64,000 nucleotides of DNA from Mesorhizobium sp. M7A.F.Ca.US.006.01.1.1. GTDB lineage: Bacteria > Pseudomonadota > Alphaproteobacteria > Rhizobiales > Rhizobiaceae. A program made the position numbers and the translations under genes. Where the stretch lies: assembly GCF_003997935.1 (NCBI RefSeq), contig NZ_RZQL01000008.1, positions 1 through 64,000 on the forward strand, given 5' to 3'. The first letter of the stretch is position 1. Every line of letters starts with the position of its first letter. Shown piece after piece: positions 8,900 to 16,551 of this stretch. Below the pieces are notes generated by a model. The model was not told the origin of the DNA, ran no database searches, and saw only the letters and a program-made list of their open reading frames with translations.

Positions 8900-10018
8900 C
8901 TATGCGGCCTGTTCGATGCGCAGCATGTGGTTGTCCCAGACATAGTCCGGTTCGGAGCGTGTCGCACCGCTGCCCTCGACGATCTCGCCGGCGCCGGTGG
9001 TGGCCATGAAGCCGGTTCTGTCGGGCGCCACGCCGCAGACCTCGACCAGCGCGCTGTTCGCGACGACCCGGCCGCTGGCCGCATCGATGACGACAAGCGA
9101 ATTGCCTTCCGGCGAAGAGACCGCGACGGTGCCGGCAGCCGGATTGGCGGCGACCGAGCCTATGTAGTTGCGGAAGCCGGACAAAACGTCCTGCGGCATG
9201 TCGAGCAGCTGCAGATCCTTGCCGCGCGTGGCGCGGCCGACCAGCAACGGACGATCGGTGCCCGGCCCCCTGTACTGGCAGCCGAACCAGACGGTTCCGG
9301 ACGGATCGGTGTCCATGTGGCGGATCGACAGCTGATGCAGTGCGGCCGGCAATTCGTGCTTCTCGACAAGGTTGCCGGTTATGCGGTCTATCAGCACGTA
9401 GGACGGCTTCATGGTGGCGATGTTGAGCTCGGCACGGCCGTAATCCGGATGGGTCTCGATGCCGCCATTTGCAACCGCAATCGTCCTGCCATCGCCCAGG
9501 AGCAGAAGCTCGTGCGGACCCATGCCATAGGTCGGGAACTCGCCGACACGGCTGAATTTCGCCCGCGCATCGTACACGCCGACGACGCCTGCGGCGTTGT
9601 CGAAGTCGTTTTCGGTGGCATAGAGCAGCGCCCCGTCGGCCGAGAACACGCCATGGCCGAAGAAATGCCGACCGGGGATGCTGGCGATGGTCAACGGCGC
9701 GTCACGGCCCGAGTGATCGAAAACCACGGCGAAGGTGCCGGGCTGGCGCGCGAAGACCACCGAGCGTTTCGATATGGGATCGAAGGTGACATCGTGGCCG
9801 CGATCGGGCAGGTCGATCGCATGCAGGACTTTGCCGGCCTGGGACAGGACGGCAGCGCCAAAGCTGCCGTCGCGTTTGACGAAAGCGGTGGCGAAGACGG
9901 CGTCGGCCGCAAGCGTCGTTGCCCAAGCCGATGGCGCCATCGCGGCCATGAAGCCAACGCCTGCAGCTCTCAGGAAATCGCGGCGATCTATCAGAGCGGT
10001 TTTCAATTCAGTCCCCAT
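8900..10018 (-). CDS. DUF1513 family protein, Tat-exported beta-propeller-like
   Basis: A 372-residue protein. The N-terminus contains a twin-arginine signal (DRRDFLRAAGVGFMAAMAP), so it is probably exported folded to the periplasm. The body has repeated strands such as AVVFDHSGRDAPLTIASIPG, GVVGVYDARAKF and TVAVSSPEGNSLVVIDAASG, resembling WD40/YVTN-like propellers. DUF1513 genes are known companions of imelysin and di-haem oxidoreductase genes in proteobacterial iron loci. It overlaps the end of imelysin B by 11 bases and is the last gene of the proposed iron operon. Its biochemical role is unknown. Confidence 0.88.
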   Translation of the reverse strand: MGTELKTALIDRRDFLRAAGVGFMAAMAPSAWATTLAADAVFATAFVKRDGSFGAAVLSQAGKVLHAIDLPDRGHDVTFDPISKRSVVFARQPGTFAVVFDHSGRDAPLTIASIPGRHFFGHGVFSADGALLYATENDFDNAAGVVGVYDARAKFSRVGEFPTYGMGPHELLLLGDGRTIAVANGGIETHPDYGRAELNIATMKPSYVLIDRITGNLVEKHELPAALHQLSIRHMDTDPSGTVWFGCQYRGPGTDRPLLVGRATRGKDLQLLDMPQDVLSGFRNYIGSVAANPAAGTVAVSSPEGNSLVVIDAASGRVVANSALVEVCGVAPDRTGFMATTGAGEIVEGSGATRSEPDYVWDNHMLRIEQAA

Positions 10019-11090
10019 CCAGCGAGGAGAAGCCAGCGGTCAGGCCGAATTCAGCGGTCAACCTGGTGCCGATCAGGGTCGACAGGCTGGAGGTGATCAG
10101 CGCGAAATGGTCGAGTTTGTCACGCAGCGCCGGATCGGCAAGCGCCTTGTCGATTGGACCGCTGATGGCCTTGGCGGTGGCGACGCCGTTGACCAGCTGG
10201 ATGTGGATCGATTCGGCCATCCAGCGCGCATCGGCCGGCAGGGCGTCGCCAAGTTTCGAGGCCTGGAACAGCGTATCGATGCCGGAGAGATTGCCGGCCA
10301 GTGACGCGGTGGTGTTTTGCGAGCGCCAATAAATCGCTTGCTTCGGCTTGTCCGCGCCCGGCTTGCCGCCGAAAAACCCTTTCAGGCGCACGTCGCGCAC
10401 CATTTCCAGCTCGTTGATGAAGACGCCGACCAGTTCGGTCACCGCTTCATTGCCGTCGCGGTAGAGCGCGTTCTGCGGCCCCGGATTGGCCCAAAGCGCT
10501 GCAAAGCCGTCCGGCTTGTTCCAGGCGGCGCTGACCTCACCGGCCATGGTTTCGATGTTGCCGGCAACAGCAGTGCCATAAGCGCAGCGGTAGGGATCAT
10601 CCTTGCCGGCAAGTGCATCGGCGCCGTCGCCATAAAGAACGAATTCGAGCGCGCCCAGCCCCTGCATGGCAACGCTCTTGCCGGCCAGTTGTGCCGGATC
10701 GGTGGCGGTTGGATCTTTGGCCGACAGCGCCGCCTGCACCTGCTTCAGGCCAATGCTCTTGCGATCCGGCCAGAACAGCATGCGTTCCAGCCGGTTGTTC
10801 TCCTTGATCGGCCCGAAGCTGATGATTTCGGCTGACGACCAGGCATAGACGGTGGCGGAGAATTCGGCGCGTGCGGCATCGAGTTCTCCTTGCGAGGGCG
10901 TGACGCACAGCTTGCGCATGGATCCGGTCAAGGCTTCCGCATGCTCGTGCAGGCCGGCATAGGCCGGGCGGACGAAGCCATCGATCGCCCGCTGGATGAT
11001 GTCGGAGGCTTTGACCGCCGCCGACGCAGGGACAACGCCCAGCAGGGCCAGCGGAAGAACGAGAAACAATGCAGAACGCTTGAACATCAC
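10008..11090 (-). CDS. Imelysin-family periplasmic protein B
   Basis: A 360-residue protein with a Sec signal (FKRSALFLVLPLALLGVVPASA) and an imelysin-like (peptidase M75 fold) body. Segments such as GSMRKLCVTPSQGELDAAR and NRLERMLFWPDRKSIGLKQV are typical. At the position where imelysin A has GYHAIEFLLWG this protein has GLGALEFVLYG. The histidine of the GxHxxE motif, thought to bind metal, is therefore absent. Members are called iron-regulated proteins and are suspected to act in periplasmic iron capture. The start overlaps the di-haem oxidoreductase stop by 4 bases, implying translational coupling. Confidence 0.9.
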   Translation of the reverse strand: MMFKRSALFLVLPLALLGVVPASAAVKASDIIQRAIDGFVRPAYAGLHEHAEALTGSMRKLCVTPSQGELDAARAEFSATVYAWSSAEIISFGPIKENNRLERMLFWPDRKSIGLKQVQAALSAKDPTATDPAQLAGKSVAMQGLGALEFVLYGDGADALAGKDDPYRCAYGTAVAGNIETMAGEVSAAWNKPDGFAALWANPGPQNALYRDGNEAVTELVGVFINELEMVRDVRLKGFFGGKPGADKPKQAIYWRSQNTTASLAGNLSGIDTLFQASKLGDALPADARWMAESIHIQLVNGVATAKAISGPIDKALADPALRDKLDHFALITSSLSTLIGTRLTAEFGLTAGFSSLDGD

Positions 11091-15148: not shown

Positions 15149-15297
15149 CTTTATGCATTTTCCTGCACCGGTCTTGCCGCTGAACTGTGCGATTGACAGC
15201 CGCCATCCCGGATGCGACCCGCAAAAGCTCGCTTGCAGCGGTGCCAGACAATTGCCATCTGGCGGAACATCCTAGGGTCGAATCGGGATTGAGTGCG

Positions 15298-16551
15298 ATG
15301 AAGAACGGTGTGGTCATTGTCGGCGCGGGTCATGCGGGCGTGCAAGCGGCCGCAAGTCTGCGCGAGGACGGCTATGACGGGCCGGTGATCCTCGTCGGAG
15401 ATGAGGACGAACTTCCCTACCACAAGCCGCCGCTGTCGAAGACCTTCATCAAGGATACCGAGGCCAAGCCACAACCCTTGCGTGGCGAGGCCTTCTACAC
15501 CGGCAGCGCTATCGACTACCGGCCTGGCGTCAAGATCGATCGCATCGATGCCGGACGCAGCAGCTTGGATATTGCCGGCGGTGGTGCGCTTGCCTTCGAT
15601 CACCTGATCCTGGCGACAGGCTCGCGCCCGCGCACGCTGCCGCTGCCCGGTGCCGATCTGTCCGGTGTGCTGTCCCTGCGCTCGCTGGCCGATGCGCGGC
15701 TGATCCGCGACCTCAGCGCGCAAAGCGACGAGGTCGTCATCCTCGGCGGCGGTTTCATCGGGCTGGAGATCGCAGCCACGTTGCGGGCCGCCGGCCGCAC
15801 GGTGACAGTGGTCGAGGCGGTGGACCGGCTGCTCGGCCGCGCCGTGGCGCCGGTGGTGGCGAGCCACGTCCGGCAACGGCTGGAAGCGACGGGCGTGCGC
15901 ATCCTCGCCGGCACCTCGATCGCCAAGCTCGATGGCGAAAACGGTCATGTCGTGGCCGCGATCACCTCGTCAGGCGAAAGGCTGCCGGCGCGCATGGTCA
16001 TCGTCGGCATTGGTGCCGTGCCGAATGTCGAACTGGCGCAGGCTGCCGGCCTCGGCATCGCCAACGGCATTCGCGTCGATCATCAGATGCGCACGTCGGT
16101 GCCGGAGATTCTCGCTATTGGCGATGCTGCCTCCTACCGTCACTGGTTCACCGGCGGCGAGGTGCGGCTGGAATCGGTGCAGAATGCCACCGATCAGGCG
16201 CGGCTTGCCGCGCGCACGATATCGGGCCATGCCGACGCCTATTCGGCGGTGCCATGGTTCTGGTCCGACATCGGCGACATGAAGCTGCAGATGGTCGGCC
16301 TGACCGCCGGCGGCGACAGCCATGTCGTGCTGGGCGACCTGCCCGACAACAAATTCTCGATCTACCACTATGCCGGCGATCGGCTGCTCGGCATCGAATC
16401 GGTCAACCGCCCCGGCGACCACATGCTTGGCCGCAAGATGCTCGGCGCCGGCTTCTCGCCGACGTCGGAAACGGTGGCCGCCGGCCCCGAGGGGCTGAAA
16501 GCGGCACTTGCCGCGTTTCAGAATATGGAGCCGGCCAAGGCCAGCGCGTAG
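15298..16551 (+). CDS. FAD-dependent ferredoxin reductase-like oxidoreductase
   Basis: A 417-residue flavoprotein of the putidaredoxin/rhodocoxin reductase type. The FAD-binding GxGxxG is at the N-terminus (VVIVGAGHAGVQAA) and the NAD(P)H-binding one in the middle (VVILGGGFIGLEIAATL). A second FAD block is EILAIGDAASY, and the C-terminal reductase domain contains WFWSDIGDMKLQMVG. Such enzymes pass electrons from NAD(P)H to [2Fe-2S] ferredoxins. No cytochrome P450 or dioxygenase is nearby, but bfd is, across a shared Irr-box promoter, so Bfd is a reasonable candidate partner. The ATG at 15298 begins exactly at the Rossmann strand; the upstream ATG at 15187 would add a non-conserved tail. Confidence 0.9.
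   Translation: MKNGVVIVGAGHAGVQAAASLREDGYDGPVILVGDEDELPYHKPPLSKTFIKDTEAKPQPLRGEAFYTGSAIDYRPGVKIDRIDAGRSSLDIAGGGALAFDHLILATGSRPRTLPLPGADLSGVLSLRSLADARLIRDLSAQSDEVVILGGGFIGLEIAATLRAAGRTVTVVEAVDRLLGRAVAPVVASHVRQRLEATGVRILAGTSIAKLDGENGHVVAAITSSGERLPARMVIVGIGAVPNVELAQAAGLGIANGIRVDHQMRTSVPEILAIGDAASYRHWFTGGEVRLESVQNATDQARLAARTISGHADAYSAVPWFWSDIGDMKLQMVGLTAGGDSHVVLGDLPDNKFSIYHYAGDRLLGIESVNRPGDHMLGRKMLGAGFSPTSETVAAGPEGLKAALAAFQNMEPAKASA

Follow-up and report, generated by a model that had tools for sequence, protein, structure and literature searches.

A probable imelysin–bacterioferritin operon of Mesorhizobium with an Irr box and a predicted leader hairpin that recurs before iron genes across the order

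How does a bacterium control an operon in which genes for the uptake, the storage and the release of iron stand side by side? The question is raised by a locus within the first 64,000 nucleotides (nt) of contig NZ_RZQL01000008.1 of Mesorhizobium sp. M7A.F.Ca.US.006.01.1.1, a stretch that is called the window throughout. Six leftward genes of this locus, headed by that of imelysin A, lie behind a perfect Irr box, or iron control element (ICE), and behind a 38-nt leader that is predicted to fold into a hairpin holding the Shine–Dalgarno sequence. In these bacteria, iron control is described mainly at the transcriptional level, through Irr and RirA (PMC7762939; papers cited by PMC number are represented here by excerpts). 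The hairpin is the element that an initial annotation of the locus, made from the sequence alone, had missed, and that it is shared by iron genes of the order is the new part of the present analysis. We propose a two-layer control, to which we assign a probability of about 0.58: Irr would activate transcription in low iron, and a further factor would read the hairpin. The elements concerned are as follows.

14995–15032, minus strand: leader RNA hairpin (predicted), 38 nt, from conservation and the covariance models R1 and R2
14985–14987, minus strand: possible GTG start of a leader frame, 7 nt after GGAGG and in frame with imelysin A
15055–15083, minus strand: proposed operon promoter, with −35 TTGACA (15078–15083), a 17-nt spacer and −10 TTTATG (15055–15060)
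15119–15135, no strand assigned: ICE (Irr box), perfect palindrome TTTAGAATTATTCTAAA, zero mismatches, kept in the genus loci

The hairpin consists of a 5′ arm (CCUUUAAU), an inner GGG/CCC stem, the loop CCUUGAA and a 3′ arm (AUUGGAGG), in which the Shine–Dalgarno sequence GGAGG (14995–14999, minus strand) sits. Across leaders, the loop is near-invariant as CCUUKAM. Conservation was followed in loci around imelysin A, which is present in 118 of the 119 genomes of the genus sample; loci were taken from 60 of these. Between the promoter and imelysin A, the 38-nt stretch is found almost invariant in 63/63 genus loci (the 60 together with the window, L039 and L040), and, with up to 9 substitutions allowed, in 20 of 98 loci outside the genus.

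For the imelysin leaders, RNAalifold and pairing by hand give the same structure: an outer stem, an internal loop, the GGG/CCC stem and a seven-base loop. On a wider alignment of 66 chosen matches from 65 sources (two of them weak: L068 with an expect value (E) of 0.011 and L198 with E 0.093), which gives 63 distinct rows, RNAalifold keeps an inner stem of four pairs only, and counting supports both stems. On the distinct rows, 91.7% of the stem cells pair versus 86.0 ± 0.5 in shuffles; double changes occur in 8 of the 13 stem pairs (3.3 in shuffles) and in 46 cells (10.3 ± 4.2 in shuffles), and none of 500 shuffles matches the observed pairing, double-change pairs or double-change cells. When the stem partners are slid by 1–3 columns, at most 5 pairs and 12 cells with double changes are obtained. 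The inner stem was extended by two pairs after inspection of the alignment. Pair 21–35, which shows all six pair types, is absent from the model used for the alignment, and stem pair 20–37 fails in 27 of the 63 rows.

Could the conserved 38 nt be a DNA operator or a coding constraint rather than an RNA structure? The very high identity across genera would fit such a constraint, and by eye the frame FDVWALNPFDWR is open in many of them. However, the stem changes fit RNA pairing including wobble (U–G, C–G and U–A, or G–U, A–U and G–C, at the same pairs), in the contexts read the element lies on the coding strand and its purine-rich 3′ arm is shortly followed by a start codon, and the frame is broken by stops and by W-to-G/R changes in other genera, as judged by eye. 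A coding exon was rejected on these breaks, and we regard the whole alternative as quite improbable. A FourU or ROSE thermometer was rejected as well: though the Shine–Dalgarno sequence is paired in the model, the arm has UUU, in place of what we take to be the four U of a FourU element, and an Rfam 15 covariance-model search of window positions 14500–15700, which covers the window leader only, gave no match up to E = 5. An integration host factor site and a RirA operator were considered by eye only, against the consensus sequences that we assume for them.

Of 83 loci, 81 have a start codon 2 to 9 nt behind the element, 46 of them at 7 nt; one has it at 15 nt and one has none. The rule used a 2–15 nt window and preferred ATG, and chance starts are therefore included in these counts. 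In 47 of the 83 loci the leader frame ends ahead of imelysin A; it is fused to it in frame in 29, the window included, overlaps it out of frame in 6 and has no start in 1. In the imelysin operons this frame is short and has no evident sequence conservation. A GC-rich inverted repeat, CCGCGC-N4-GCGCGG, lies behind the leader start of the window at about 14954–14969 (minus strand), and inverted repeats of other sequence are seen by eye at this place in many genera.

The same leader stands in front of genes other than imelysin A. A search of 347 genomes of the order with model R1 (E 0.001) gave 64 matches in 55 of them, the window genome included. Downstream lie imelysin A, directly or after a gene here called orfX (26), an FbpA-type Fe3+-binding protein (21), bfd–bfr (6), orfX alone (5), feoAB (2), FTR1 (2) and a DUF2325 protein (2); by class, 57 matches precede iron genes, 5 orfX alone and 2 DUF2325, but several of the query proteins came from these loci, and the counts therefore describe the link to iron and do not test it. 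FbpA was named through the PDB matches 1y9u and 1q35, whereas FTR1, a cupredoxin-like protein, FeoA, FeoB, hemP, a periplasmic binding protein and DUF2325 were named by Pfam, with one example each. Because it precedes fbpA, bfd–bfr, feoAB, an FTR1-type permease and others, the leader would be a regulon-wide element of the Hyphomicrobiales, of which the window genome has a single copy. In 385 genomes drawn from the class, model R2 at E 1e-4 found the window genome only, with strict filters that lose weak matches.

A pattern scan of named genomes added at least 118 stretches, 80 of which became loci. Among the matches listed, the leader is found in Mesorhizobium, Brucella/Ochrobactrum, Pseudochrobactrum, Phyllobacterium, Aminobacter, Hyphomicrobium, Filomicrobium, Methyloceanibacter, Methylobrevis, Stappia and others. 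Upstream, ICE-like sites (≤3 mismatches, ≤300 nt away) accompany 103 of 117 leaders (all 80 pattern-scan loci and 37 of the 64 R1 matches) versus 1.4% of composition shuffles. At L302, hemP and haem-type uptake genes follow an orfX-like gene behind the leader; at L342 and L379, two of the 80 pattern-scan loci, no query-protein match lies behind it. One record, JAHREI010000001.1 (L326), titled Bacillus subtilis SK6B4, has a leader and an orfX that closely resemble the Pseudochrobactrum ones (L337) and is perhaps a mislabelled or mixed assembly.

The product of orfX has about 165 residues, a CRDEC-type C-x3-C motif and conserved tryptophans (L278 and L302–L381; e.g., L311, 804–1307, minus strand), and in many genera its gene stands behind the leader or behind fbpA. 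No Pfam or NCBIfam family was found for the examples scanned. The AlphaFold model is confident (predicted local distance difference test 90.2) and mainly helical, and it has no PDB fold match at E 0.001. The leader also precedes a DUF2325 protein (Pfam) at L270 (691–1914, minus strand) and a similar protein at L245; the DUF2325 protein is a possible regulator of the system.

What, then, does the DNA in front of the leader suggest? The window site agrees with what we take to be the letters of the ICE consensus and is the sole match in 64 kb at ≤3 mismatches (chance mean 0.21); the claim of a single Irr site for the six-gene unit in the initial annotation holds. A chance match can be set aside because the ICE is kept in 60/60 other genus loci, 59 times perfect and once with one mismatch. 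The 7.3-Mb assembly has two perfect ICEs, one at this operon and the other at mbfA (NCBIfam FeExpMbfA, 576 bits), and it encodes IrrA (NF045678, 224 bits, cut-off 150).

The proposed promoter was derived from conservation; a consensus scan for sigma-70-type promoters in 8800–15400 found none, the proposed one included. In the window, 35 nt separate the −35 hexamer from the ICE. Across the genus, the gap between ICE and TTGAC is 34–36 nt in 63/63 loci, the −10 place reads NTTTATG in 58 of the 63, and the promoter is seen in other genera too. With the start site assumed to lie about 7 nt past the −10, the ICE centre falls near −79. When the 117 leaders and one more are considered, imelysin leaders among them, 101 of the 118 have both an ICE-like site (≤3 mismatches) and TTGAC, at gaps of 33–36 nt in 65, 23–25 nt in 18, 45–46 nt in 6 and other values in 12. 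We read these groups, which lie about one helical turn apart, as pointing to activation from one face of the helix.

Irr, whose box the ICE is, has been reported as a repressor or an activator depending on the position of the ICE (PMC7762939). In front of mbfA in the window genome, the ICE occupies positions −33 to −17 relative to the ATG and thereby closely precedes the start codon. At the operon, unlike mbfA, its position is activator-like, and Irr most likely acts there as an activator. Alternatively, Irr may repress the operon in low iron, and the imelysins, Bfd and Bfr would then form a storage or detoxification unit for plentiful iron. For bfr, repression by Irr in low iron is reported in other Rhizobiales, with Bradyrhizobium and Ensifer as reported cases (PMC7762939), and likewise in B. 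japonicum (PMC3413700). In addition, a second −35-like TTGA[CT] is present just upstream of the ICE in 53 of the 63 genus loci and could be served by the −10-like TCTAAA inside the ICE; a distal promoter blocked by Irr is therefore possible. However, the strictly spaced promoter downstream of the ICE in all 63 loci argues against repression, as does the different place of the ICE at mbfA, a known kind of repressed target, and a similar gene set of Rhodobacter sphaeroides is induced in low iron (PMC3413700, PMC4176601). On balance, repression appears unlikely.

A related case comes from Brucella melitensis, in which the gene of a 2Fe–2S binding protein is bound by Irr in an electrophoretic mobility shift assay and is lower in an irr mutant at low iron; its stated neighbour is an antibiotic-biosynthesis monooxygenase (PMC10374146). 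In Brucella gallinifaecis (L319), the order is a monooxygenase-like gene (named by eye), leader, bfd and bfr, which suggests, by orthology taken from this gene order, that the Irr-bound gene of B. melitensis is bfd. Other ICE-like sites with one mismatch were seen near position 1501 of L006 (G000:C529) and near position 1501 of L005 (G000:C197), one of them 30 nt upstream of a NifU-like Fe–S gene and one about 130 nt upstream of a cysteine-desulfurase-like gene, both genes being named by eye.

The two-layer proposal takes from the sequence the genes, the ICE, the promoter spacing, the hairpin covariation and the gene contexts; the direction in which Irr acts, the block to translation, the existence and nature of a loop-binding factor and the functions of the proteins are the parts that we infer. 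In the first layer, on the DNA, scarcity of iron and hence of haem would let Irr bind the ICE, about 79 bp upstream of the assumed start, and the bound Irr would activate the TTGAC-N17-TTTATG promoter. In the second, on the RNA, the transcript would begin with the hairpin, whose 3′ arm is the Shine–Dalgarno sequence. The hairpin would keep down translation of the short leader frame and, through it, of imelysin A, and a putative factor would recognise the near-invariant CCUUKAM loop, opening or clamping the structure. In low iron, the imelysins and the di-haem protein would handle periplasmic iron and Bfd would release iron from Bfr, while Bfr made alongside would buffer incoming iron; the joint production of storage and uptake genes would thereby be explained.

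Whether the reader of the loop would be a protein or an RNA leads to an alternative that is compatible with the first layer. The hairpin may be the docking site of a trans-acting small RNA, which would pair with CCUUKAM and free or block the Shine–Dalgarno sequence. In the gene contexts that were aligned, the loop and its closing stem are nearly invariant and the outer stem varies with pairing kept, as for a seed-pairing site, and an iron-responsive Hfq-bound small RNA is reported in Caulobacter (PMC11005374). However, GC pairs close the loop and the stem is of importance as well, features that are also compatible with binding of a protein, and we put the small RNA forward only tentatively. 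A broader idea, for now a doubtful one, is that the CCUUKAM hairpin plays in bacteria the part that the iron-responsive element plays in animals, with one RNA-binding factor that reports on iron setting the translation of the whole iron regulon beneath Irr. The hairpin-bearing mRNAs in question are those of ferric ATP-binding cassette uptake, Feo, FTR1, haem uptake, the imelysins and bacterioferritin.

Several points weigh against the two-layer proposal. On the DNA side, these are the second −35-like hexamer and the reported repression of bfr given above, and the fact that the helical-phase reading is not independent of ancestry, the distinct gap values giving short vectors (0.21–0.33). On the RNA side, the model to which the alignment was fitted had nearly the same structure, which leans the covariation count. 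The imelysin leaders alone hardly covary (one double-change cell, reached by 45 of 500 shuffles), and covariation arises with the leaders of other genes added. For the window leader, folding is not better than in shuffled sequence (z 0.45 and 0.03); its energy is −10.5 kcal/mol, with −16 to −22 kcal/mol in 40 nt for four leaders of other genes. Finally, loci L187 and L188 keep the operon and the ICE without the leader element.

The genes that such control would serve are the following.

13575–14864, minus strand: imelysin A (Peptidase_M75), Pfam 291 bits, GxHxxE motif present as GYHAIE
13152–13463, minus strand: Bfd-like [2Fe–2S] protein, from the Cys pattern C-x-C ... CC-x-C, size and gene order
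12701–13186, minus strand: bacterioferritin Bfr, Pfam Ferritin 113 bits, NCBIfam TIGR00754 183.5 (cut-off 125.6)
11087–12688, minus strand: di-haem oxidoreductase (DHOR) with two CxxCH, Pfam 313 bits
10008–11090, minus strand: imelysin B, Pfam 169 bits, nearest solved chain 3pf0
8900–10018, minus strand: DUF1513 protein with a RRDFL motif of the twin-arginine translocation type, Pfam 370 bits

Because of the tight spacing and overlaps (in order, a gap of 111 nt, the overlap of the bfd and bfr ends, 12 nt and two further overlaps), with terminator-like matches no more than chance (6 vs 5.2 ± 3.0 in shuffles), the six genes (8900–14864) likely form one operon. The gene calls of the initial annotation hold, with Pfam or NCBIfam matches for all but Bfd, which stands as Bfd-like, and so do the grouping of uptake, storage and release genes in one cluster and the lack of a permease in it. 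By eye, the start of imelysin A resembles a signal peptide, and its nearest solved chain is 7xrx. Imelysin A has the GxHxxE that we take to be the imelysin (M75) motif, whereas imelysin B reads GLGALE, without the His. The Bfd-like protein has no Pfam match in the protein scan, scoring 14.2 bits with PF04324 (Fer2_BFD) below the cut-off of 26, and a PDB search gave no match; it was named for its size, its place before bfr, the published gene order of R. sphaeroides and its cysteines, which follow what we assume to be the four-Cys [2Fe–2S] pattern of Bfd. The assembly (7.34 Mb in 562 contigs, with an estimated contamination of 6.5) has four ferritin-domain matches: two exceed the cut-off, the operon Bfr and a Dps-like protein, and of the two that fall below it one is MbfA.

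Of the 60 genus loci, all have bfd and 59 a full bfr. At L136 (G139), bfd is kept and bfr is reduced to a 16-residue stub; at L039 (G069), bfd is kept in the operon and bfr has no match. Imelysin A was found in 67 of 121 genomes of the order-wide sample and in 93 of 151 of the family sample, and 60 and 40 loci, respectively, were compared from these; most of them hold the core of imelysin A, DHOR, imelysin B and DUF1513. Among the 98 loci from outside the genus, 30 carry bfd or bfr on the strand of imelysin A and ≤4.5 kb downstream of it. An ICE (≤1 mismatch, ≤1 kb upstream) is present at 21 of these 30 versus 6 of the 68 others, counts that are not independent because the loci are related by descent. 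Rearranged imelysin clusters occur at L085 and L209, where imelysin B and DUF1513 matches lie upstream of imelysin A; L085 has a second imelysin B downstream.

Opposite the operon stands one further gene, which the initial annotation had made part of a circuit with Bfd.

15298–16551, plus strand: ferredoxin-reductase-type flavoprotein, Pfam Pyr_redox_2 227 bits and Reductase_C 82

According to that circuit, the flavoprotein would be the Bfd reductase and be co-controlled through the ICE. It is divergent from the operon in 60/60 genus loci, and a rightward TTGAAA, able to pair with the −10-like hexamer in the ICE, is present in 46 of 63. However, the protein resembles putidaredoxin/rubredoxin reductases (best solved relative 3fg2, E 5e-100), and its gene adjoins the operon at only 9 of 40 loci from the rest of the family. 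Fpr reduces Bfd; the FAD/NAD domains of ferredoxin–NADP+ reductases of the Fpr type were not found in the flavoprotein, which has Pyr_redox_2 and Reductase_C. Several family loci without it keep bfd, bfr and the ICE, and in G308 (L183) the operon, an ICE with one mismatch, bfd and bfr are kept. In 25 chosen genomes, a relative of at least 58% identity is present in 10, the best relative has 39–49% in 14, and G308 has no match at E 1e-60; in G251, a relative of 63% lies about 116 kb from the operon. Since the operon persists without the flavoprotein and the latter is of the putidaredoxin/rubredoxin-reductase kind, electron transfer from it to Bfd is not supported and an obligate partnership with the operon was rejected. 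Nothing beyond adjacency speaks for a Bfd reductase, and the circuit is very unlikely. Beside the flavoprotein, a ParD/ParE-like pair occupies window positions 16589–17148; ParD matches occur in 7/60 genus loci, some of the stretches compared ending near that place.

For the control proposed here, two consequences may reach beyond this operon. If many iron genes carry a hairpin over their Shine–Dalgarno sequence, control would gain a translational layer, and the loop would offer a handle for finding the reader. Moreover, the distance from ICE to promoter is suggested as a rule that may separate Irr-activated from Irr-repressed sites at many loci.

How does the locus compare with known systems? 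The closest is the R. sphaeroides operon hemP-irpA-bfd-bfr-RSP_1545-1544-1543, for which differential RNA sequencing suggests co-transcription (PMC4618611, PMC3413700, PMC4176601, PMC4344238). In the wild type, low iron raises irpA 4.1-fold, bfd 2.7-fold and bfr 2.0-fold (PMC3413700); the rise of irpA and bfd is also given in PMC4176601, and irpA is named an imelysin in PMC4344238. Both operons have irpA/imelysin, bfd, bfr and an oxidoreductase with two haem sites (a thiol oxidoreductase in R. sphaeroides) in the same order, followed by two more genes. RSP_1544 and RSP_1543, called hypothetical in the excerpts, would correspond to imelysin B and DUF1513, a match set by place and not by sequence. 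The front ends differ: in R. sphaeroides, hemP comes first and IscR acts via an Iron-Rhodo box, whereas the window operon has the ICE and the RNA leader upstream, and by eye no hemP-like frame, only the leader frame, is seen between the ICE and imelysin A. Because an operon much like that of the window, with low-iron induction, has been published, the combination of uptake, storage and release genes in one operon is already known, and the locus represents a rhizobial form of this known kind of iron-limitation operon. The reading of the locus as an iron unit in the initial annotation stands for the gene combination and is weakened by this earlier publication. In the literature excerpts searched, which do not cover the basic Irr regulon papers, so that an earlier notice of the ICE at this operon is possible, nothing was found on the rhizobial ICE-bearing form, and no paper was recognised as describing the leader.

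Other known systems share single features with the locus. The mbfA and bfr genes of rhizobia have the same box, and Irr is encoded in the window genome; the reported repressor site of mbfA contains the start, whereas the ICE of the window operon lies 34–36 nt upstream of the −35 (PMC7762939, PMC3413700). Leaders that hide the Shine–Dalgarno sequence, such as riboswitches, thermometers and targets of proteins or small RNAs, likewise have GGAGG in a predicted 3′ arm shortly before the start codon. Unlike those known, the window leader has no Rfam match, carries the loop CCUUKAM and, in the samples used here, occurs in Hyphomicrobiales/Rhizobiales in front of iron genes. In Candidatus Pelagibacter, a region resembling structured RNA precedes sfuC (PMC2704228, PMC2864753) and is also a suspected leader RNA of an alphaproteobacterial iron-uptake operon; the table row in the excerpt names no motif, and the class-level search reported here found the leader only within the order. 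Finally, the Bfd and Bfr pair is shared with the Bfd–BfrB iron release of Pseudomonas aeruginosa (PMC7762939), and here it is placed inside an imelysin operon.

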